Assembly (NCBI RefSeq): GCF_001511835.1
Contig: NZ_LN997848.1
Coordinates: 2,756,001 to 2,820,000 of the forward strand
Reading direction: 5' to 3'
Length of the DNA: 64,000 nt
Origin: Magnetospirillum sp. XM-1
GTDB taxonomy: Bacteria > Pseudomonadota > Alphaproteobacteria > Rhodospirillales > Magnetospirillaceae
The position numbers were made by a program, and so were the translations under genes. Under the pieces are notes generated by a model. It did not search any database, was not told the DNA's origin, and worked only from the letters and a program-made list of their open reading frames with translations. This document shows positions 13,983 to 63,072 of the stretch, piece by piece (position 1 is the stretch's first letter; each line of letters opens with the position of its first letter).

Positions 13983-14228
13983 TCACACGTTATTTCCGGC
14001 CTCAAGGACCAGGCTGCCATCGGGACCCGATACGATCCGCTCGACCTTGGTTCGCGCCTCTTCCAGCTTGGCTTCGCAATGCTTCTTCAGCAGCGCGCCG
14101 CGCTCGTAGGCGACGATTGAATCATCAAGGCGGCCCTTGCCTTCCTCCAGCCGGCGCACGATGAGGTCCAATTCGGCCAGGGCCTCCTCGAAACTCATGG
14201 CGGCGATGTCGGTGGGGATGTCTGCCAT
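13983..14228 (-). CDS. xseB: Exodeoxyribonuclease VII small subunit
   Basis: 81-aa protein starting MADIPTDIAAMSFEEALAEL, the typical XseB opening; the core LDLIVRRLEEGKGRLDDSI and the basic, charged helix LLKKHCEAKLEEARTKVERI follow. The ATG at 14228 is chosen because AAGAG precedes it; the in-frame extension is short and unlike the family. XseB binds XseA to form the single-strand exonuclease VII. The xseA gene is not in the window. First gene of the xseB-ispA-dxs run. Confidence 0.95.
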   Translation of the reverse strand: MADIPTDIAAMSFEEALAELDLIVRRLEEGKGRLDDSIVAYERGALLKKHCEAKLEEARTKVERIVSGPDGSLVLEAGNNV

Positions 14229-14368
14229 GGGAACTCTTGACTTAAGCAACCGGTATCGGGTCTTCCAACGAAGCGCGGAAGTTTACGGGCGGAGGTCCCC
14301 GAAGGCAAGCGCCACTGCGCACCATTTGAAAAAACCTGCGACCATCCGACGAAATTTTTGGTCTTGCC

Positions 14369-15634
14369 CTAATGTCCGATGGCTTGCCGCAAGGCGGGGT
14401 CTTCGGGCCATTTGGCCAGCGCCTGGGCCAATATCTCGTCTGCCGCGGCCTGCTCACCCAGACGCCGCAGCATCATCCCCAGGTAGATGTAGGCCTCGCG
14501 GTATTGCGGATCGGACTGGATGGCCTGGCGCAGCAAGGGCGGGGCTTCGGCCAGCCGTCCCAGTTCAGCCTCCGCCATGGCCAGGTTGAACAGGCTGCGG
14601 GGGTGGCCGGGCTTGAGGCGCAGCACGTCGCGGAACGCGTCGGCCGCCTCGGCGAAGCGGTTCAGCAGGAACATTTCGCCGCCCTGCTGGAAACGCGCCT
14701 TGGCCTCGGCATCGTCGGCGTTGCCGCCATCGTCGGGGCGTCCCAATCCGACCTCGCCCAGCAGGGCCGCATCCGTCTCCAGCCCATCGCGCAGCAGGGA
14801 CATCTGCCACTGCAATAACGAGGGGTGGCGAAGCAGCTTGATGGTCGCTTCGAAGACGAAGCCGCCGGCCGAAAGGGTCACGACCTGCTTGACGACGTCC
14901 TCGGGACGGTGGGACGTGGCGTGCAGGATGCGAACGCCGCCTTCGGGATGGGTTATGAGCGGCATTCCCTCGTCCGTCTGGCCGACACGGGCCGACGACA
15001 GGAATGAGGCGCACAGGTTCCATTCCCACATATGGAGCGCCAAATAGCCGGCAGGGTGCGCCACTAGGTTAAAGGCGTTCTGCTCGAACAGATTCTCGTC
15101 CGGCATGTCCCGGCACTGCCGGTCCCAGGCGGTGAAATACTCCCGCGAGGCGCAGGCGAAGAAGCCCGAATTGAGGTAGGGCGTGCCGGCGTCGATGCCG
15201 CGCGCCTTCGCCAGCGTCTCGAAATGGGGGGCGGGGACGACCCGCAGCAGGTCCGCGTATGTCGTCGGATCGCTACACACCGCCAAGGGCCGGCCTTCCG
15301 CCAGCAGGCGCTCGGCGATGGCGGTCAATTGGGAACCGCACGGGGCCACCGCCATCATGTCGGCGTCCAGCCAGAACGCCACGTCCCACGGCCGGTCCTC
15401 GAGATAACGCCCCAGCGCCGCCTTGCAACGCCAGGGATGCGCTCCCGCCAGATCGGCCGGCGCCTTGATCAGCAGGCCCTTGCGGTCAAGGAACGTCCGT
15501 TGCTGCTCGGTCAGGCCGAAATCGCAGACCTCGATGCGAATATCGGGGGCGAAGCGCCGCAACGAGGCGAACAGCGGGAAAAGGATGAAGAAGTATTCGG
15601 CGTTGACGCCGGTGACATAGCGGATGTTCGCCAT
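14369..15634 (-). CDS. Nucleotide-sugar glycosyltransferase-like protein with C-terminal TPR repeats
   Basis: 421 aa. The first about 250 residues resemble GT8/GT-A-type transferases: MANIRYVTGVNAEYFFILFP opens a Rossmann-like sheet, and WDVAFWLDADMMAV carries a DxD-like metal site, followed by LNSGFFACASREYF. Residues about 295-420 hold TPR-like helical repeats (RFAEAADAFRDVLRLKPGHP, REAYIYLGMMLRRLG). The fusion suggests glycosylation of a protein or assembly on a complex, but the acceptor is unknown. It lies 7 nt upstream of nothing it obviously works with: the HDAC-family gene ends 6 nt before it on the same strand, so the two may be co-transcribed. Confidence 0.75.
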   Translation of the reverse strand: MANIRYVTGVNAEYFFILFPLFASLRRFAPDIRIEVCDFGLTEQQRTFLDRKGLLIKAPADLAGAHPWRCKAALGRYLEDRPWDVAFWLDADMMAVAPCGSQLTAIAERLLAEGRPLAVCSDPTTYADLLRVVPAPHFETLAKARGIDAGTPYLNSGFFACASREYFTAWDRQCRDMPDENLFEQNAFNLVAHPAGYLALHMWEWNLCASFLSSARVGQTDEGMPLITHPEGGVRILHATSHRPEDVVKQVVTLSAGGFVFEATIKLLRHPSLLQWQMSLLRDGLETDAALLGEVGLGRPDDGGNADDAEAKARFQQGGEMFLLNRFAEAADAFRDVLRLKPGHPRSLFNLAMAEAELGRLAEAPPLLRQAIQSDPQYREAYIYLGMMLRRLGEQAAADEILAQALAKWPEDPALRQAIGH

Positions 15635-53291: not shown

Positions 53292-54905
53292 GTGGCAAAA
53301 ACACAAATGCGACACACGAAAAACGCTGAAAAATCAACGGACACAGTGCAGCACAGGGACCCGATCCCGCTCAATTTTACGCCCGTGTCAGAGGGAACTC
53401 AGCAATTATATTGGCGTGGGGATCGCTGGTACTGCCTTTTCAGGAGGCCAGGGGAGCGAGTCCCGGTTCGGCTGACCACAGGTACCGCTGATGAGGCAGA
53501 GGCTCGAAGAAAGGCCCAAGCTGAATTTATTAAGTTACAGACGAGAATCAGCAGCGGAAAACCCCGGAAGGATGTGACCTTCCGTATTGTCGCCAATAAA
53601 TTAGCTGAAGAGCTTGAGGCGGAATTGAAGGCACGTAAAAAATATGGAGAGCGTGCCCCAAACGGTGATCGTCTGCGGCACCCACAAACTCTTGGAAAGA
53701 AAATTAATCACATACGGTCGTATTTGATCCCTTTATTCGCTGACAAGGCAATTAAGGATATAAGTGATGATGACATTAGAAAGGCAAAAACTCATTTTGC
53801 AACATACTGGACTGAGGGGCCTGGAAAAAATATTAGTAAGCTAAGTTTTGTAAAAAATGGGCGTATTCAGGAAACGACGAGAAGAAAGCTCGGTGTTTCT
53901 AACAGAAACACGATTAATCAATACGCTATGACCATTAATGAAGTTTTGCGATTTTCGAAAACACATTTTGGCACAGAGCACCGTCTGACAAAAACTGTCT
54001 ACACGGATCGTCTGGATTCGCCACGATCCTCCATCACAGCGGAACAATTTAAAGCTATATGCGATTTGCAGCAGAAAAGAATTAATGCTGAGAAACGCGA
54101 ATATCACAAATGGCGATTGCGAAGGGTTATTTGTGCATTTGAATTCGTTCTATATTCCGGGTTGCGTGTTGCAGAAATTCACAGTCTTAAGTGGGGTGAT
54201 CTTGCGGTTATTCCAGTTCAGTTGGGGAAAACATTGCACATTAGCAATGTAAGATCAAAATTAAAGCCGGTGCGATCCGTAGTTTGCCGGTCTGAAATAA
54301 TGCATACATATAATGAAATGAATGAGCATAGAAAGACGGATGATCCGCTTGAGTATGTTTTTTCTAATGAATTTAATCCATTAAAGCCGTGCCATATTAA
54401 TGATGGTGTTCAGGTTCTGCTGCAAAAGGCTGGGTTATGGAGTGATGGAAGGGGAGGGTATCGCACTCTTGGCAGCATGAGGCATTCATATTGCCAATGG
54501 ATGATCCACAACATGAATCCATTTAATTTGTATAAACTTGCTGCAAACATGGGTACATCAGAGATTCAGATCAGAAAGCATTATGCATCTGATATTAATC
54601 TGCGAGAAAATTTGGAGGCCCTTGCGGGGACTATTGATGTTGGTTTGGCCGACGTTTTTAAGAACGCTAAGCGGAAAGAAAATAGAGAAGCTATAAATCC
54701 ATTCATTTCTGATGCTCGTGAAATGATTCGTATATGGGAAGAGGTGGGTGAAAACTGGCGTGCTATGGATGATGATTGGGTTGGTAACGAAATTCGGAAT
54801 TTTCATGGGGAGTATGTTTATAACGGCGTTGAGTTGAAGGCTTTTATTGCGACGATCAGGTGCATGGTTGATGTTGATGCTCCACCTCACGACATGCCTT
54901 CCTGA
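53292..54905 (+). CDS. Tyrosine recombinase/integrase of the island
   Basis: 537 aa from a GTG at 53292 (an ATG at 53307 is also possible; neither has a clear ribosome site). Residues about 30-85 look like an arm-binding domain, about 90-230 a core-binding SAM-like domain, and the C-terminal catalytic domain holds R in YSGLRVAEIHSLKWGDL, the MRHSYCQWMI motif (His-x-x-Arg region altered to RHSY), and the nucleophile Tyr in IRKHYASDI. The tail after the tyrosine (about 95 residues) is longer than usual. The gene is distinctly AT-rich. It lies about 150 bases inside the radC junction, so it probably catalysed this insertion. Confidence 0.93.
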   Translation: MAKTQMRHTKNAEKSTDTVQHRDPIPLNFTPVSEGTQQLYWRGDRWYCLFRRPGERVPVRLTTGTADEAEARRKAQAEFIKLQTRISSGKPRKDVTFRIVANKLAEELEAELKARKKYGERAPNGDRLRHPQTLGKKINHIRSYLIPLFADKAIKDISDDDIRKAKTHFATYWTEGPGKNISKLSFVKNGRIQETTRRKLGVSNRNTINQYAMTINEVLRFSKTHFGTEHRLTKTVYTDRLDSPRSSITAEQFKAICDLQQKRINAEKREYHKWRLRRVICAFEFVLYSGLRVAEIHSLKWGDLAVIPVQLGKTLHISNVRSKLKPVRSVVCRSEIMHTYNEMNEHRKTDDPLEYVFSNEFNPLKPCHINDGVQVLLQKAGLWSDGRGGYRTLGSMRHSYCQWMIHNMNPFNLYKLAANMGTSEIQIRKHYASDINLRENLEALAGTIDVGLADVFKNAKRKENREAINPFISDAREMIRIWEEVGENWRAMDDDWVGNEIRNFHGEYVYNGVELKAFIATIRCMVDVDAPPHDMPS

Positions 54906-55182
54906 CCAATGCCAAGTCACGGGGATCGCTCAACCATACGATCACGGCGACGAACCCAAGGTGGTTCAGGACCGTTTGCCAATGAATCTCAGTCAATTCC
55001 CCGCCGCCGTTATCGGTGAACAGCACCTCCCCCAGGCGATTCTCCAGGGCAGCGTCCAGGTAGGCACGGCCCTCGTCATCGACTGCCAGCATGATCGATG
55101 ATGGGTATCGGGATGACAGTTCCGCCAACCGACGTTGGATTGCGGCAACCAGGGTGATTTCTGCTTCAGACCTCATCATCAT
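54856..55182 (-). CDS. Hypothetical island protein, 108 aa
   Basis: Starts MMMRSEAEITLVAAIQRRLA from three consecutive ATG codons; the first overlaps the preceding zinc-ribbon gene by 17 nt. Predicted soluble alpha/beta protein with IMLAVDDEGRAYLDAALENR in the middle and a His-rich end. Its 3' end overlaps the integrase 3' end by 50 nt on the other strand. I do not recognise the family. The pair with the small zinc-ribbon gene looks like a two-gene operon reading toward the integrase. Confidence 0.6.
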   Translation of the reverse strand: MMMRSEAEITLVAAIQRRLAELSSRYPSSIMLAVDDEGRAYLDAALENRLGEVLFTDNGGGELTEIHWQTVLNHLGFVAVIVWLSDPRDLALVRKACREVEHQHQPCT

Positions 55183-55601: not shown

Positions 55602-55787
55602 ATGGCTCGCAAAATAAAGATAACACGAGAATCAGCAAGGGAATCGCTTTCAAATGAACAGCGTGTTGAGTTCGACAAACTTGTAGATGACGTAGGTGCG
55701 TGGTCGATCAATTTCTATGGGACGAAGCTCGTTTCCTATGCAATTCTCGCTGAACTCATTCGAGATGGTTGGAAAAAGTCCTGTTAA
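55602..55787 (+). CDS. Small hypothetical protein opening the restriction-like operon, 61 aa
   Basis: Starts MARKIKITRESARESLSNEQ with GGGAGA seven bases before the ATG. Basic N-terminus, then a helical segment FDKLVDDVGAWSINFYGTKL and a C-terminal LAELIRDGWKKSC. No known motif. It overlaps the likely start of the SNF2 helicase gene by up to 19 nt, so translation is probably coupled and the product may be a small subunit or regulator of the system. Confidence 0.65.
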   Translation: MARKIKITRESARESLSNEQRVEFDKLVDDVGAWSINFYGTKLVSYAILAELIRDGWKKSC

Positions 55788-58660
55788 ATGCTTTCATGGA
55801 CGCCGTTTTGAACGCAATAACACCCCAGCAAAGCACATACTTCGCCCACAAGGTTACACTTGAGGGCTTGGGCGAAGACGCCCTTGCTCAATCGCTGTCC
55901 ACCGCCAGGGTGGATATGAACCCCCATCAGGTTGATGCCGCATTGTTCGCATTGGCATCTCCATTGTCCAAGGGCGTGGTGCTTGCCGACGAAGTTGGTT
56001 TGGGCAAAACCATTGAAGCCGCACTGGTGATTGCCCAGCGATGGGCAGAAAGGAAACGGCGGATCATATTGATCGTACCGGCATCACTGCGGAAACAGTG
56101 GAGCCAAGAGCTTCTTGAAAAATTCTCGATGCCCTCGATTATCCTGGAGGCCAAGGGCTATAACGCCGAAAAGAAGGCAGGAAATACCCGGCCATTCGAT
56201 CAATCGAACAAAATCATTATCACCTCGTATGAGTTTGCCGCACGGAAATCAGATGAGATCAAGCGAAACCGTTGGGACTTGGTGGTCTACGACGAAGCTC
56301 ACCGGCTTCGAAACGTATACAAGAAGGGAGCGTCAATCCGTGCGAGGACGCTCCGTGAAGCAACCAAGCCCTACTTCAAGGTTTTACTGACAGCCACCCC
56401 GTTGCAGAACTCTCTGATGGAGCTTTATGGGCTGGTTTCCGTCATTGACGAACATTTCTTCGGTGACGAGAAATCCTTCCGCTCCGCCTATGTGGCCAAT
56501 GGCTCGAACAAGACAGGGCTTATGTTTCTGCGAAAGCGGTTGGAAAGCATCTGCAAACGGACGCTTCGCCGTCAGGTGCAACAGGCCGGTCTCATCAAAT
56601 ATACAGAGCGGTGTCCCCTCACCATTCAGTTCGAGCCTGCTGACCAGGAAGTACGGCTCTACAACGAGGTTTCTGCTTATCTGCAACGCACAGGAACCAT
56701 TGCCTTTGGCAGTCGTACAAACGCACTGGTCACCCTCGTTGTCCGCAAGATTCTAGGTTCATCGACCTTTGCAGTGGCCGAGACATTGGCGAAAATCATT
56801 ACACGCCTGAAAAGCCAGCAGCGTCCTGACACCGAATGCCTTTCCGATTACGAAATCGCGGATGAAGATGCTGAGGAGTTTGACGAGGATGGCCAGAGTG
56901 ATGACGACCATCAGGCCGACGATGATAGCGACGCTATTGATCCGAAGGTGTTGATGGCTGAAATCGCTGAGTTGGAAGGGTTTCGACAACTTGCATTGAC
57001 GATTGGGGCTAACAGCAAGGGCGACAAGCTGGTCAATGTCCTGCCCAAAGTTCTAGATGAGATCGTCCTCAAAGGTGGGCAACGGAAGGCTGTGATCTTC
57101 ACCGAATCCGTTCGCACCCAGCGGTATCTGGCCGACCTTCTCACGGCCAACGGCTATGCCGACGACATCGTTCTGATGAATGGTCAGAACAACGACCCGG
57201 CCAGCCAAGCCCTCTATCGCGACTGGATCGCCCGCCACAAAGGAACCGACGCGATATCGGGGTCGAAGTCCGCTGATATGAAGGCGGCGGTGGTGGAGGC
57301 ATTTCGCGAACGCAAATCGATTCTGATCGCCACGGAGTCGGGTGCGGAAGGTATCAACCTGCAATTCTGCTCTTTGCTCGTGAATTTTGATCTCCCATGG
57401 AACCCCCAACGGGTAGAGCAAAGAATTGGGAGGTGCCATCGGTACGGCCAGCGGATCGATGTCACGGTCGTCAACTTTTTGAACCTCAAGAACCGGGCGG
57501 AACAGCGAGTGTTCCAGCTTCTGGGTGAAAAGTTCAATCTTTTCGCTGGTGTGTTCGGTGCCAGCGACGAGGTGCTGGGTGCCATTGAACGCGGCGTTGA
57601 TATTGAGCGTCGAATTCTAGAAATCGTTCAAAAGGGTCGCACCGAAGCTCAGATTGACGCCGCCTTCGACCAACTCCAAGACGATCTGCAAGCCCAGATC
57701 AGCGAGCAGGTGCTGGATACCCGCAAGCGGCTACTGGAAAATATGGATGAGGCCGTAGTTCGGCAGTTGAAGAGCCGCGATGGTGAGATCAGGCAGCACC
57801 TTTCAGATTTTGACCGCTCATTGCTGATGGTGGCCCGAGGCGAACTCCCCGAAGCACATTTCCACGAAGATGATGGGCGGCGGTTTGATCACAGCGATCT
57901 CACATATACGACGGAATGGCCGGTCGCGGATCGCCAAGGGTGGCAGTTTTTCCGGCTGACCGAAGGCAACCTCGCCGCTGAATTGGTCTCTCGGGCAAAA
58001 GGCCGCCCCTACGGGTCACCAGTACAGCTTCGGTTCGACCTGTCCGCCTATAATGGCCGCCTGATTGATGTTGAGCCATTGCGGGGATCGTCAGGGTGGC
58101 TGCGTGTAGCAAAGCTGCGTATCACCACGCCAGCGGCAACCCGTGAACACCTTGTTCTGTCGGTCGTCGCTGATGATGGCCGCGACATTCACCCTGAAAC
58201 CATGGAACGCCTGATGGGCGTTCCCGCTCGTAACCTTGGTTCGGTGCAGATAGCCGTCCCGGAAAAGGCACTGGCGAAACGCGAGGCGGATCAACGCGGG
58301 TTGCTCATCACTCAGGCCGAGGAGCAGAACGCCAAATGGCTGGATGAGGAATCCGAGAAGCTGGACGCCTTCGCGGAAGACTTGGAACGTGGGTTCGAAG
58401 CCGAGGTGAAGGCGGTCGAATCCGAGATCAGGGAAGCCAAGAAGGCACTTCGGACATCTGTGCTGCCCTTGGCTGAGAAGTTGGCCGAGAAGCGTCGGAT
58501 CAGCGGGTTGGAAGGGCGGCGGGACAAGATGAAGGCCGAGTTTTTCGACCGTCGTGCCCAAATCCGTGCGGAAATTGAAGTGATGCTGGATCAAGTTCAG
58601 GAGAATCTGAACTTGGTGCCGTCGATGACATCTATCTTCACGATCAGATGGGAATTATAA
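55769..58660 (+). CDS. SNF2/HepA-type helicase, possibly DrmD-like
   Basis: 963 aa from a TTG at 55769 (or 954 aa from an ATG at 55796). Superfamily 2 motifs: Walker A DEVGLGKT 74-81, DEAH 175-178, TATP 208-211 and motif VI QRIGRCHRYGQ 551-561. Between the two RecA-like lobes is an acidic insert (about 364-391, nearly all Asp/Glu/Gln/Ser). The C-terminal third has coiled-coil-like helices (about 830-950). The closest style I can name is the RapA/HepA group, including DrmD of DISARM; no DrmA, B or C gene is here. It probably translocates on duplex DNA with the following methyltransferase and nuclease. Confidence 0.88.
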   Translation: MEKVLLNAFMDAVLNAITPQQSTYFAHKVTLEGLGEDALAQSLSTARVDMNPHQVDAALFALASPLSKGVVLADEVGLGKTIEAALVIAQRWAERKRRIILIVPASLRKQWSQELLEKFSMPSIILEAKGYNAEKKAGNTRPFDQSNKIIITSYEFAARKSDEIKRNRWDLVVYDEAHRLRNVYKKGASIRARTLREATKPYFKVLLTATPLQNSLMELYGLVSVIDEHFFGDEKSFRSAYVANGSNKTGLMFLRKRLESICKRTLRRQVQQAGLIKYTERCPLTIQFEPADQEVRLYNEVSAYLQRTGTIAFGSRTNALVTLVVRKILGSSTFAVAETLAKIITRLKSQQRPDTECLSDYEIADEDAEEFDEDGQSDDDHQADDDSDAIDPKVLMAEIAELEGFRQLALTIGANSKGDKLVNVLPKVLDEIVLKGGQRKAVIFTESVRTQRYLADLLTANGYADDIVLMNGQNNDPASQALYRDWIARHKGTDAISGSKSADMKAAVVEAFRERKSILIATESGAEGINLQFCSLLVNFDLPWNPQRVEQRIGRCHRYGQRIDVTVVNFLNLKNRAEQRVFQLLGEKFNLFAGVFGASDEVLGAIERGVDIERRILEIVQKGRTEAQIDAAFDQLQDDLQAQISEQVLDTRKRLLENMDEAVVRQLKSRDGEIRQHLSDFDRSLLMVARGELPEAHFHEDDGRRFDHSDLTYTTEWPVADRQGWQFFRLTEGNLAAELVSRAKGRPYGSPVQLRFDLSAYNGRLIDVEPLRGSSGWLRVAKLRITTPAATREHLVLSVVADDGRDIHPETMERLMGVPARNLGSVQIAVPEKALAKREADQRGLLITQAEEQNAKWLDEESEKLDAFAEDLERGFEAEVKAVESEIREAKKALRTSVLPLAEKLAEKRRISGLEGRRDKMKAEFFDRRAQIRAEIEVMLDQVQENLNLVPSMTSIFTIRWEL

Positions 58661-58688
58661 TTAGCAGCTTCTGTAAAAAGGACTTGAG

Positions 58689-60329
58689 ATGAGCAGGCAG
58701 CGGCTTGAGCTATTGTGGATTGGAAAAGAACTTCGACCACGCCCTGAGCCTCGTATACTAATTGAGGATGCGGACGTATCGTATTGCTCAAGCACAAAAT
58801 CATCCGCGAATGATGTTTTTGAAAATAAACTAATTCATGGTGACAATCTACTCGCCTTAAAGGCCCTGGAGGGTGACTTATGCGGCAAAGTGAAATGCGT
58901 ATTTATAGACCCACCTTATAATACTGGATCCGCATTTGAGCATTATGACGATGGAGTTGAACACTCGCTGTGGCTTTCGTTGATGAGAGATCGGCTTGAG
59001 ATACTGCGAAACCTTCTTTCTCCTGACGGAACAATATGGATTGCGATTGATGACAATGAAGCTCACTACCTAAAGGTATTGGGTGATGAAATATTCGGCA
59101 GAAACAACTTTATTGCCTCGGTCATTTGGAGAAAAAATTATTCACCAAAATCGACCGCTCGTCACTTTTCTGGTGACCATGATTATATATTGATCTTTGC
59201 TAAGAACGCAGAGATTTGGAAGCCAAATCCAATGCCGCGATCTGAAAAACAGGATGCCGCATATAAGAATCCTGACAATGACCCAAGAGGGCGGTGGAAA
59301 CCTGGAGACTTATCGGCAAGAAATTATTACAGCAAGGGGACTTACAAAATAACTACGCCAGGAGGGCGGTTAATACCCGGGCCGCCAAATAAAAATTATT
59401 GGAGAGTGGAAGAAGAAAAATTTTGGGAACTTGATCGAGATAAACGCATCTGGTGGGGAAAAGATGGCAACTCAATACCTCAGATAAAACGATTTTTGTC
59501 TGAGGTTAAAGATGGCGTTGTTCCTCAGACGTTCTGGTCTCACGAAGAAGTTGGTCATACACAAGAAGCAAAGCAGGAATCCATCATGCTTTTTGGAGGC
59601 GACGCCTTTGACACGCCAAAACCAGAAAGGCTAATTTCGCGGGTATTGTCAATTGCGACGAACAAGGGTGATATTGTTCTTGATTCCTTCGCAGGATCAG
59701 GCACTACCGGGGCCGTGGCTCATAAAATGGGGCGGCAATGGTTCATGGTAGAGCTTGGCGAACATTGCCGAAGTCTCATTGTCCCACGCATGAAAAAGAT
59801 TATCGATGGCAATGACCGGGGTGGCATAACAGAAGCGGTTGGCTGGAGCGGTGGCGGCGGATTTCGCTACTATCGACTCGCCCCCTCGCTGCTTGAAAAA
59901 GATCGTTGGGACAATTGGGTCATCAGCCGGGACTATAACTCCGCCATGTTGGCCGAGGCCGTCTGCAAACTCATGGGGTTTACCTACGATCCAAGTGAAA
60001 AGCTTTATTGGATGCATGGCCGGTCATCCGAACGTTCCTTCATCTACGTCACCACCCAAAGCCTGACCCACGATCAGCTTCGAGCGATTTCCGAGGAAGT
60101 GGGCGAAGAACGCAGCCTGTTGGTCTGCTGCAAGGCGTTCAATGCCAAGCCGGAAGCCTTCGCTAATCTGACGGTAAATAAGATTCCCCAGACGGTTCTA
60201 CGAAAGTGCGAATGGGGGAAGGATGATTACAGTCTGAATGTCGCCAATCTCCCTATAGCGGCACCGCCAACCGAGGAATCGCCAGCACGACCGGCTCAGG
60301 GCACCCTCTTTAGCGGCGGGGAGGAGTGA
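58689..60329 (+). CDS. Adenine-specific DNA methyltransferase, type III Mod-like (beta class)
   Basis: 546 aa with AAAAGGA before the ATG. Catalytic motif IV DPPY is at 74-77 and the SAM motif FAGSGTT at 334-340; this order defines the beta class used by type III Mod. The segment between them (about 150-320) should hold the target-recognition domain. Residues 1 to about 370 are coded by AT-rich DNA, the remainder by GC-rich DNA, suggesting replacement of the catalytic/recognition part by recombination. It follows the helicase by 28 nt and precedes the Res-like gene by 4 nt. Confidence 0.92.
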   Translation: MSRQRLELLWIGKELRPRPEPRILIEDADVSYCSSTKSSANDVFENKLIHGDNLLALKALEGDLCGKVKCVFIDPPYNTGSAFEHYDDGVEHSLWLSLMRDRLEILRNLLSPDGTIWIAIDDNEAHYLKVLGDEIFGRNNFIASVIWRKNYSPKSTARHFSGDHDYILIFAKNAEIWKPNPMPRSEKQDAAYKNPDNDPRGRWKPGDLSARNYYSKGTYKITTPGGRLIPGPPNKNYWRVEEEKFWELDRDKRIWWGKDGNSIPQIKRFLSEVKDGVVPQTFWSHEEVGHTQEAKQESIMLFGGDAFDTPKPERLISRVLSIATNKGDIVLDSFAGSGTTGAVAHKMGRQWFMVELGEHCRSLIVPRMKKIIDGNDRGGITEAVGWSGGGGFRYYRLAPSLLEKDRWDNWVISRDYNSAMLAEAVCKLMGFTYDPSEKLYWMHGRSSERSFIYVTTQSLTHDQLRAISEEVGEERSLLVCCKAFNAKPEAFANLTVNKIPQTVLRKCEWGKDDYSLNVANLPIAAPPTEESPARPAQGTLFSGGEE

Positions 60330-60333
60330 GGCC

Positions 60334-63072
60334 ATGACGAACCGCATCTTCCGCACCATTACCCAGCGGCTTTCGCTCCGTGCCCCCCAGTCGGATTCCT
60401 TGGGCATCCTGGCCCAAATCCTCGAACAGGTGATCATCGAGAAAGGTGCGGATCCATATCGTACTTTGGCAGTCATTCGAGAAACATGGCCGCAGGTAGA
60501 GGATTTTGAGCGGGAGTTCCCGTCTTTGTGTTTCGCTATCGCCACAGGCGTCGGCAAAACCCGCCTGATGGGTGCCTTCATTTCCTATCTGTATCTCACT
60601 GGGAAAAGTCGGCATTTTTTTGTGCTGGCACCGAACACCACCATCTACAACAAGCTGATCGGTGACTTTTCCCCTGAAAGCCCGAAGTACGTCTTTAAGG
60701 GCATAGCCGAGTTTGCCCAGAACCCACCGCTGATTATCACTGGTGATAATTATGATAGCGGTCGTGGTGTCCGACTGGATGGTGGACGTTCCTCCGATTT
60801 GTTCGGTTCGGATGTCCACATCAACATCTTCAACATCGACAAGATCAACAAGGAAGAAGGGCCACGTGGTCGGCCCAAGATGAAGAAGCTTCAGGAAACC
60901 ATTGGCGAAAGCTACTATGATTACCTTTCAAAGCTGACGGACTTGGTTCTGGTGATGGATGAAGCCCATCGTTATCGGGCTAGTGCGGGTGCCAAAGCCA
61001 TCGAAGGGCTGAAGCCTATTCTTGGATTGGAATTGACGGCAACCCCCAAGACGGTCGGCACCAATCCTGTGCCGTTCCGCAATGTGATCTACGATTACGA
61101 CCTTGGACGGGCGATGGCCGATGGTTTCGTCAAGGAACCTGCCGTCGCCACCCGCAAGGATTTCAGCATCAATGGAATTCCGCAGGACCGTCTGGAAAAG
61201 ATCAAGCTGGAAGATGCTGTTCACCATCACGACCATGTTGCTGTGGAACTGGACCGCTATCATCGGGTGAGCGGGCGAAGCAAGGTCCATCCCTTCATCC
61301 TGGTGGTTGCTCAAGACACCGACCACGCTAATCACATCAAGGCATTCGTGGAATCGGAGGAGTTCTTCAAAGGCCGGTTCAAGGATCGCATCGCCCTGGT
61401 ACATTCCAACACACGCGGTGAAGAAAGCGAGGAGGCCGTTCAACGTCTTGTTGCTCTTGAACACGATGGCCGCACGGAGATCGTGATCCATGTCAACAAG
61501 CTCAAAGAAGGTTGGGATGTGACCAACCTCTATACCATCGTCCCGTTGAGGGCTTCTGCCTCGGATATTCTGACCGAACAGACCCTTGGACGTGGCCTTC
61601 GGCTGCCCTACGGCGAACGTGTTTCACGCGGTAGTGATGATGAATTCGCCGCCGTGGACCGACTCACGGTCATCGCCCATGATCGGTTTGATGAAATTAT
61701 CCAGAAGGCCAGGGAACCCGGTTCCATCGTCCAAATGAAAGTCCTTCAAATTGGTGAAGGTGGGGACATCTCACCTGCGGGGGCTAAGCTGGTGGAATCG
61801 CCTTCAGTGGCCGAGATGATGATTACCGGTACAGCCTTGTTGCTGCCCGGCATACCCGATGTCCCAAAGCCAAAGATCACTCTGGCATCCGCAGAGGAGC
61901 ATCGTGCCGTCGATGTGACCTTCCAGGTGATCCGCCGTTTTGAACGGAAGCTTGGCAGCGTCGAGGAGTTATGCCAGCCAGAGGTTCGTGCCAAAATCGT
62001 TGCGGAAGTGAGGGAATTGATTCGCCCTATGCAGGGCACCCTCGACGGCGTTGTTTTGGCTCCTCGTGTGGAAGAGATCGTCGCAGTTATCACCGAGACG
62101 GTGACCGAACGCACCATGTCCATTCCGCAGATCGTGGTGATCCCGAAGCGTCAAGTCACCTTCCATTTCAGAGACTTTGACCTCAACGAACTGGGGAGCA
62201 TCAATCACCGGCCATTGGACGATGGCTTGGTGATCCAAACCTTGCGGACTGAAGTGAAGACCTACCTCGCGAAAACCGTGGATGATCCACGCGAAGAGCG
62301 GATGGAGGACTATCTCGTCCGCCACCTGATTGACCGGAACGAGGTGGATTACGACAGCCACGCTGATTTGCTCTACAAACTTGCCGGTCAGTTAGTTCAT
62401 CGGGTTCGGTCGTACCTGACCACCGACGCCGAGGTAGAGAACGTCCTGCTCCGCAATGGCCGCCAATTGGCAGATTTCATTTTTGCCCAGATGAAGCAGC
62501 ACTACTCGGAAACGCCATTGGGGGAAGACGATTACGAGGTCCGCGTAACCCGTGGATTTGTTTTGCTCCAACCTCAGCTACTCAATGTCACGCCCGGCCA
62601 ACAGGTGAAGGATTTCAAACAGCAGGTGATGCCGTTGTCCGACACCAAGCGTCAGGTGTTCGGCGGGTTCAAAAAATGCTGCTATCCGGTACAGAAGTTC
62701 GATTCTGATCCCGAACGCCGGTTTGCAGTCCTTGTGGATTCCGATGCCTCGGTCGAAAAATGGTTGAAACCGGGGCGTGCTCAATTTCAGATCGAGTATC
62801 GCTCGGGTGAATCCTATGAGCCGGACTATGTGGTGGAAACCGCGAAGCAGATGCTGATCTGTGAAATCAAGGCAAAGAACGAACTTTCTGATCCCATCGT
62901 CCAAGCCAAGGCACAGGCGGCGGTGAAGTGGTGCAAGGCAGCCAGCCAGCACGCCAAGGAAAGTTGCGGGAAACCATGGTCGTATGTGCTGATCGCTGAC
63001 GATCAGGTCATCGGCAGTGCGACCGTGGAGGGGTTGGCGGCCAAATTCACCCAAGGAGCCGTCATTAGATGA
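60334..63072 (+). CDS. Type III restriction Res-like helicase-nuclease
   Basis: 912 aa. SF2 helicase motifs: ATGVGKT 70-76, DEAH 208-211, TATP 234-237, and LGRGLRLPYG as motif VI. A C-terminal PD-(D/E)xK nuclease is intact: D831 in EPDYVV, then E844 and K846 in ICEIKAK. The length is close to that of type III Res subunits. It should cut unmodified DNA in a complex with the Mod-like protein. The ATG lies 4 nt after the mod stop with GGAG upstream. Its stop is TGA within ATGA, so a further start codon overlaps it. Confidence 0.92.
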   Translation: MTNRIFRTITQRLSLRAPQSDSLGILAQILEQVIIEKGADPYRTLAVIRETWPQVEDFEREFPSLCFAIATGVGKTRLMGAFISYLYLTGKSRHFFVLAPNTTIYNKLIGDFSPESPKYVFKGIAEFAQNPPLIITGDNYDSGRGVRLDGGRSSDLFGSDVHINIFNIDKINKEEGPRGRPKMKKLQETIGESYYDYLSKLTDLVLVMDEAHRYRASAGAKAIEGLKPILGLELTATPKTVGTNPVPFRNVIYDYDLGRAMADGFVKEPAVATRKDFSINGIPQDRLEKIKLEDAVHHHDHVAVELDRYHRVSGRSKVHPFILVVAQDTDHANHIKAFVESEEFFKGRFKDRIALVHSNTRGEESEEAVQRLVALEHDGRTEIVIHVNKLKEGWDVTNLYTIVPLRASASDILTEQTLGRGLRLPYGERVSRGSDDEFAAVDRLTVIAHDRFDEIIQKAREPGSIVQMKVLQIGEGGDISPAGAKLVESPSVAEMMITGTALLLPGIPDVPKPKITLASAEEHRAVDVTFQVIRRFERKLGSVEELCQPEVRAKIVAEVRELIRPMQGTLDGVVLAPRVEEIVAVITETVTERTMSIPQIVVIPKRQVTFHFRDFDLNELGSINHRPLDDGLVIQTLRTEVKTYLAKTVDDPREERMEDYLVRHLIDRNEVDYDSHADLLYKLAGQLVHRVRSYLTTDAEVENVLLRNGRQLADFIFAQMKQHYSETPLGEDDYEVRVTRGFVLLQPQLLNVTPGQQVKDFKQQVMPLSDTKRQVFGGFKKCCYPVQKFDSDPERRFAVLVDSDASVEKWLKPGRAQFQIEYRSGESYEPDYVVETAKQMLICEIKAKNELSDPIVQAKAQAAVKWCKAASQHAKESCGKPWSYVLIADDQVIGSATVEGLAAKFTQGAVIR

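Follow-up and report, generated by a model that had tools for sequence, protein, structure and literature searches.

A SNF2 ATPase gene linked to type III-like Mod and Res genes in Magnetospirillum sp. XM-1: a probable SNF2-coupled restriction-modification system

Classical type III restriction-modification enzymes need only two subunits, the methyltransferase Mod and the helicase-nuclease Res, and for cleavage they require no more than a Mod2Res1 complex, ATP and two inverted unmodified sites. Here, we describe an operon in which both genes are preceded by a gene for a SNF2 ATPase. It occupies positions 55602-63072 of a 64,000-nucleotide stretch of the Magnetospirillum sp. XM-1 genome (contig NZ_LN997848.1, positions 2,756,001 to 2,820,000 of the forward strand), which we refer to as the window and whose numbering is used below; other loci and genomes carry our own L and G numbers. 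We consider it probable that this operon is a SNF2-coupled type III-like restriction-modification system, with SNF2 as a third core subunit working together with Res.

The nearest printed comparisons that we found, as far as the accessible parts of these sources go, are the Hma or DUF499-centred systems, which are related to BREX (bacteriophage exclusion) and contain a SNF2 helicase, an N6 methylase and a DUF499 ATPase (PMC12839542), and operons associated with MORC, of which one set carries Snf2 helicases and another type III-like helicases (PMC2292703). The window operon also combines a SNF2 helicase with an N6 methylase and gives 175 bits with the HmaA model. However, its third component is a Res helicase-nuclease instead of a DUF499 ATPase, and no DUF499 match was present among the nine open reading frames (ORFs) scanned, four of them those of the operon (no genome-wide search was made). 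Our literature search found no description of a SNF2-Mod-Res set, which is weak evidence since most subscription journals lie outside its coverage.

The operon comprises four ORFs, all on the plus strand and located where the original prediction had placed them. A 61-amino-acid ORF (55602-55787), a small optional gene that overlaps the start of SNF2 or directly adjoins it, shares 19 bases with the SNF2 gene (55769-58660; 963 residues from a TTG at 55769, with an ATG at 55796 as alternative start). After a gap of 28 bases follows Mod (58689-60329; 546 residues) and, four bases further, Res (60334-63072; 912 residues). Mod is a beta-class N6-adenine-type DNA methyltransferase, since its DPPY motif lies ahead of motif I, and matches N6_N4_Mtase (169 bits) and the PADLOC MTase_III model (724 bits). 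Res is a ResIII helicase (77 bits; PADLOC REase_III, 836 bits) with a C-terminal PD-(D/E)XK-like nuclease, whose RE_endonuc match stays under its cut-off (19.4 versus 23.4 bits). Across the aligned families, conservation reaches 93% or more at the key motif residues, namely DEVGLGKT (74-81) and DEAH (175-178) in SNF2, D74-P75-P76 and G336-S337 in Mod, and G72, G74-K75-T76, D831, E844 and K846 in Res. The layout resembles that of type III systems such as EcoP15I, in which a beta-class Mod and a Res helicase-nuclease share one operon, and both window proteins match their EcoP15I counterparts by sequence, with Res aligning over 91 residues only (E 5e-6). It differs from type III by a conserved third gene, SNF2, and by the accessory genes that many related loci carry in the gaps.

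The SNF2 gene is consistently tied to Mod and Res. We collected SNF2 matches at an E-value of 1e-60 in an order sample of 297 genomes and a phylum sample of 398 genomes, and distinguished three lineages of Mod-Res partners: a (that of the window), b (EcoP15-like) and c (methylase of about 1100 and Res of about 1084 residues). The family occurs in 17 of the order genomes (18 places, one of them, in G039, at a contig end) and in 20 of the phylum genomes (21 places, four of them, in G297, G326, G357 and G396, at contig ends). Mod and Res lie downstream at 16 of the 17 evaluable places in the order sample (5 a, 4 b, 7 c) and likewise at 16 of 17 in the phylum sample (11 a, 2 b, 3 c). Pooled, with the window's own place counted once, this amounts to 31 of 33 places, an adjacency far above chance; two counted places (G125, G218) carry an in-frame stop. 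Both exceptions are truncated SNF2 genes, one ending at residue 760 before a gene of the window-integrase cluster (G237, order sample) and the other a 224-residue fragment (phylum sample). The association that the original prediction wished to see conserved across genomes is therefore much more than an occasional one. In a scan of genome contigs, 59 loci offered 6 kb or more of downstream sequence and 53 of them have Mod and Res, which is not an unbiased rate because the top 80 of 479 relatives were picked by score. In a viral collection that may include non-viral contigs (47 of 75 loci examined, with L260 and L264 alike), both genes were present at 29 of 33 loci with at least 5 kb downstream.

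The linkage also holds when read from Res. Lineage-a Res occurs at 21 places in the phylum sample. SNF2 lies upstream at 11 of these, contig ends interrupt 7 (L155, L156, L158, L159, L161, L164 and L166; at L158, the 3 kb visible upstream of Mod are without SNF2) and 3 lack it, corresponding to 11 of 14 evaluable places. In the order sample, SNF2 accompanies five of seven lineage-a Res places, one of the others being at a contig start and one a lone N-truncated Res, which is also one of the three phylum places lacking SNF2. Lineage-c Res was found in seven of the 297 genomes, and all seven have SNF2.

Within lineage a, SNF2 and Res further diverge in step. Mantel tests on 41 of 56 loci (15 without three well-called ORFs were dropped; L104 and L105 had been left out beforehand as duplicates) gave correlations of 0.933 for SNF2-Res, 0.565 for Mod-Res and 0.508 for SNF2-Mod, with 0 of 2000 permutations as high, and SNF2-Res still reached 0.843 when only the 261 pairs whose hosts belong to different phyla were considered. 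The signal is unevenly distributed along Mod: residues 376-546 correlate with SNF2 at 0.79 and with Res at 0.88 (0.881), compared to 0.43 and 0.45 for residues 1-145, 0.06 and 0.06 for the target recognition part (146-300), and 0.17 and 0.24 for residues 301-375; residues 1-375 as a whole reach 0.262 against Res. The partial correlation of SNF2 with Res given the Mod C-terminal part is 0.815, and that of SNF2 with the Mod C-terminal part given Res is -0.18; therefore, SNF2 and Res at the two ends of the operon are kept as a pair, whereas the part of Mod that sets specificity is swapped. According to the accessible part of the structural study of EcoP15I, the C-terminal domain of ModA contacts Res (PMC4490356). 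The co-divergence of the Mod C-terminal part with Res fits this known contact, which supports reading the SNF2-Res signal likewise, and suggests that the Mod segment at about 376-546 docks Res.

Alternatively, the operon could encode an ordinary two-subunit type III enzyme, with SNF2 a separate defence gene travelling along. In its favour, Mod and Res suffice in classical systems, and two loci, L152 and L153, carry lineage-a Mod-Res without SNF2; the third lineage-a Res place that lacks SNF2 is a lone N-truncated Res elsewhere in the window's genome. In the order sample, SNF2 is missing beside most lineage-b relatives as well: a window-type SNF2 stands beside lineage-b Res at 4 of 17 places, where Res is 68-100% identical to the query; G147, at 76% identity, has Mod and no SNF2; G163 (66%) is cut by a contig end and G196 is a fragment; and beside the ten places at 37-46% identity no member of the window SNF2 family was found. 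These cases also weigh against a SNF2-coupled system, as do several others. SNF2 occurs without Mod-Res at 6 of the 59 scan loci (L034, L050, L053, L056, L075 and L083), and without Mod and Res at 4 of the 33 viral-collection loci. For the 636 pairs that are more diverged, the SNF2-Res correlation is down to 0.43, and it is not the tightest in 11 lineage-c loci (SNF2-Res 0.835, SNF2-Mod 0.805, Mod-Res 0.919). Finally, co-inheritance without contact can also yield co-divergence. Against the two-subunit explanation stand the linkage at 31 of 33 places, the SNF2-Res correlation of 0.93, the pairing of SNF2 with three Res lineages and its presence in all seven order-sample genomes with lineage-c Res, and we regard a separate SNF2 as quite unlikely.

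Several loci that depart from the common layout deserve description. L034 (2429-4648) holds the closest SNF2 relative (82%), which breaks off at residue 760 ahead of an integrase-cluster gene and is a remnant at an island edge. At L075 (4564-11823), SNF2 is accompanied by a 65-amino-acid gene and an SMC-like ATPase gene, no Mod-Res was found, and DarT-like and macro-domain-like ORFs, recognised by eye, come next. L083 carries, after SNF2 and a Schlafen gene, a short ORF (14077-14379) that by eye resembles the start of a lineage-b Mod, and is probably a decayed system. In L274, from the viral collection, lineage-b Mod and Res are located upstream of SNF2 rather than downstream. The N-truncated Res in the window's genome (G000:C1:2077664-2080003; L149:11668-14004) is a second paralogue with 58% identity, and neither Mod nor SNF2 was found within the surrounding 19 kb.

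Three Res lineages serve as partners of the SNF2 family, and the SNF2 tree requires at least five changes of partner (FastTree of 92 loci out of 98, with one long-branch warning; duplicates accounted for two of the excluded loci, and a short or missing SNF2 ORF for the other four). A partner lineage was assigned to 76 of the 92 proteins, by Res or, where Res was missing, by Mod. As for how the three proteins might work together, Mod, judging from its class, would mark an asymmetric site by adenine N6 methylation; Res, given its homology and co-divergence, would dock on the Mod C-terminal domain and cut unmarked DNA as in EcoP15I. SNF2 would most likely translocate along double-stranded DNA and thereby load, power or license Res on invading DNA, for instance by removing bound proteins or by bringing distant sites together. 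Protection against phage would be expected from the family and the island setting. Tentatively, one may go further and picture SNF2 as an exchangeable front-end motor, shared by three Res lineages and by DISARM (defence island system associated with restriction-modification), whose translocation would, in the branch described here, be needed for cutting by Res, with Mod mainly marking self and holding Res.

The SNF2 protein itself matches SNF2-rel_dom and Helicase_C in Pfam, and contains the acidic insert anticipated in the original prediction at about residues 360-391, in a low-confidence region of the predicted model (predicted local distance difference test below 50 at 353-387). The predicted model is RapA-like. 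This likeness also raises the idea that SNF2 acts on RNA polymerase and thereby controls expression of a toxic Res, which we consider very unlikely.

DrmD of DISARM is the nearest named family. PADLOC assigns the window protein to DrmD with 626 bits (best stretch at residues 41-682); against the NCBIfam models, it reaches 623 bits for NF038318 (DrmD_b), under the cut-off of 950 and over the helicase part only, and 259 bits for NF038317, under the cut-off of 610. True DrmD genes were found in three loci. L281, from the viral collection, is a DISARM locus with DrmD, DrmA and DrmB above the NCBIfam cut-offs and DrmMII and DrmC called by PADLOC. L282 and L283, from the viral collection too, show the order cytosine methylase, DrmD, Mod, Res and DrmA, the last reaching the end of the locus; the L282 methylase is DrmMII by PADLOC and L283 has a relative of it. 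Their DrmD proteins score 1396 and 1528 bits against the cut-off of 950, and that of L282 is 66% identical to L281 DrmD. Both are 38-39% identical to the window SNF2, so the resemblance to DrmD that had been pointed out from the sequence is real. In these two DISARM-like loci (L282:5267-16525, L283:6623-17880), Mod and Res are embedded between DrmD and DrmA, directly after DrmD. An exchange in which DrmD would have left DrmABC for Mod-Res is ruled out there, as DrmA directly follows Res in both; therefore, DrmD-Mod-Res occurs alone as well as inside DISARM-like loci. Upstream of the DISARM set of L281 (1724-6657), we noted a type III-like Mod (695 residues, PADLOC MTase_III) and a 947-residue ORF with a weak hsdR match.

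The family likeness of SNF2, and the occurrence of a true DrmD followed by Mod-Res in L282 and L283, could suggest that the window operon is a remnant or shortened form of DISARM. However, SNF2 stays below the DrmD_b cut-off, and the operon lacks DrmA, DrmB and DrmC, having an adenine-type Mod and Res instead. No match to MZB/DUF1998, the domain of DrmB, was found in the whole genome, with a control search positive in 8 of 14 genomes. The L281 proteins DrmA, DrmB and DrmC, used as queries at E 1e-10, had no match in L005 or L006; over the examined loci, detection of DrmA was confined to L281-L283, and that of DrmB and DrmC to L281 itself. A DISARM remnant, already disfavoured, is thus extremely improbable. 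PglZ of BREX was likewise without a match in the whole genome (control search positive in 2 of 14 genomes). The window genes, which match SNF2, Mod and Res, accordingly form one operon that is neither DISARM nor BREX. To this extent the original prediction of a set outside the named systems stands, but we prefer to see in the operon a type III variant that is coupled to SNF2, and not one that lacks relatives altogether.

A second layout that combines Snf2 with type III-like genes was seen at L224 (2516-13152), L226 (1902-11031) and L228 (1670-10703), where a Snf2 helicase gene, a gene of 230-246 amino acids, Mod and Res are read in one direction; in L224, a 565-amino-acid ORF lies between Mod and Res. 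We take this arrangement to be Gao_RL, presumably defined by a helicase in which PLD is fused to Snf2, together with a gene of about 240 amino acids, Mod and Res (PADLOC C3a139 'HKD+Snf2'). The window operon shares with it a Snf2-type helicase gene upstream of Mod-Res. The helicases of these three loci, which stand beside lineage-b relatives of the 37-46% group, are nevertheless another, larger Snf2 protein (PADLOC HKD+Snf2 is the best match in L224 and L226), only distantly related to the window SNF2, and the window Mod-Res belongs to another lineage. No PLD match was found in the window SNF2, and no 240-amino-acid gene precedes Mod, the gap being 28 bases.

Many of the related loci carry additional genes, often of the abortive-infection (Abi) type, in the gaps of the operon. 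Among 58 lineage-a loci, the gap between SNF2 and Mod measures at least 300 bases in 35 and less in 23, the window included. Representatives of the gap genes match SLFN_AlbA_2, an SMC-like ATPase (with a 65-amino-acid partner), AIPR/AbiU, Abi_C/AbiJ, Abi_2, Fic, HEPN_Swt1, AAA_21, SocA_Panacea, Bro-N, DUF6119, GcrA and GmrSD_N, while five scanned gap proteins were without a Pfam match; a sacsin-type ATPase gene follows Res in six scan loci. A RhuM-family gene is located between Mod and Res in all six loci that have RhuM and both genes (three of lineage a, one of b and two of c) and, among later loci, in L159 (a) and L196 (c), whereas in L163 its place is between SNF2 and Mod. The loci with RhuM between Mod and Res are thus L081, L094, L098, L100, L106, L109, L159 and L196, and represent all three lineages. 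From such genes, including the RhuM genes at this recurrent position, one could picture SNF2 as a sensor or switch that responds to stalled or unmodified DNA and fires gap-borne abortive effectors, with restriction as the first layer. The 23 loci with a short SNF2-Mod gap and the five gap proteins without a Pfam match speak against this. The window copy, too, has no accessory gap gene of these families and carries just the 61-amino-acid gene, and we regard a sensor role as unlikely.

The 61-amino-acid gene is supported as a real gene by relatives that are 48-69% identical. It was, however, present at only three of the loci examined, with two further relatives in a database of 5.8 billion proteins; therefore, the conserved set consists of three genes, and a conserved four-gene set, in which the original prediction had counted the small protein as a member, is ruled out. 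In L029 and L033, the relatives sit between SNF2 and Mod. The predicted model of the protein has three helices, and a fold search against the PDB gave no significant match (best E 5.8).

As had been proposed, the operon lies in an integrated island. The G+C fraction is 0.47-0.59 in the island compared to 0.65-0.71 on the flanks, and a tyrosine recombinase gene (Phage_integrase; 53292-54905, +), outside the system proper, adjoins the operon at the left edge. The island extends to about 82 kb in window numbering, beyond the window end, and its right edge is unsure because an nrdR-like ORF, named by eye, falls inside. A search for att repeats (direct repeats of at least 13 bases between 52.80-53.29 kb and everything rightward) returned one 15-base match (52930 and 88930), and ARAGORN found no tRNA genes at the island. 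Between integrase and operon, a 108-amino-acid ORF on the minus strand (54856-55182) has a weak GajA match (17 bits).

The SNF2 family is widespread and mobile. The genome-contig scan found it also in Armatimonadota, Acidobacteriota, Planctomycetota and Bacteroidota. Furthermore, SNF2 has matches in 53 plasmid records at E 1e-40; in 45 records the match spans at least 80% of the protein, and 32 are typed as conjugative. Methylase and DEAD-box helicase genes lie downstream of SNF2 in all six plasmid regions opened, with a helix-turn-helix or WYL gene just upstream in three. Conjugative-plasmid copies from Salmonella (L201:6232-16247) and Klebsiella (L202:11763-21515) have a small helix-turn-helix gene that precedes and overlaps SNF2; in L202, the annotation breaks the methylase into pieces. 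The phage records searched yielded one partial match only.

Type III systems are taught as Mod plus Res, and here a horizontally moving branch has a motor as its third gene, conserved and diverging in step with Res. This branch accounts for the SNF2-related and 'rapA' genes found beside methylases on plasmids, offers a directly testable handle on the role of DrmD-type SNF2 proteins in DISARM, and marks the gaps of SNF2-Mod-Res operons as places to find abortive-infection genes. If the more tentative picture of an exchangeable motor on which cutting by Res depends is correct, a large branch of type III would have three subunits, and annotation pipelines would be dividing it into 'type III RM' (restriction-modification) and a 'stray DrmD'. 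Given its recurrence in many unrelated bacteria, the motor looks like a core part that has been left out of the standard descriptions.

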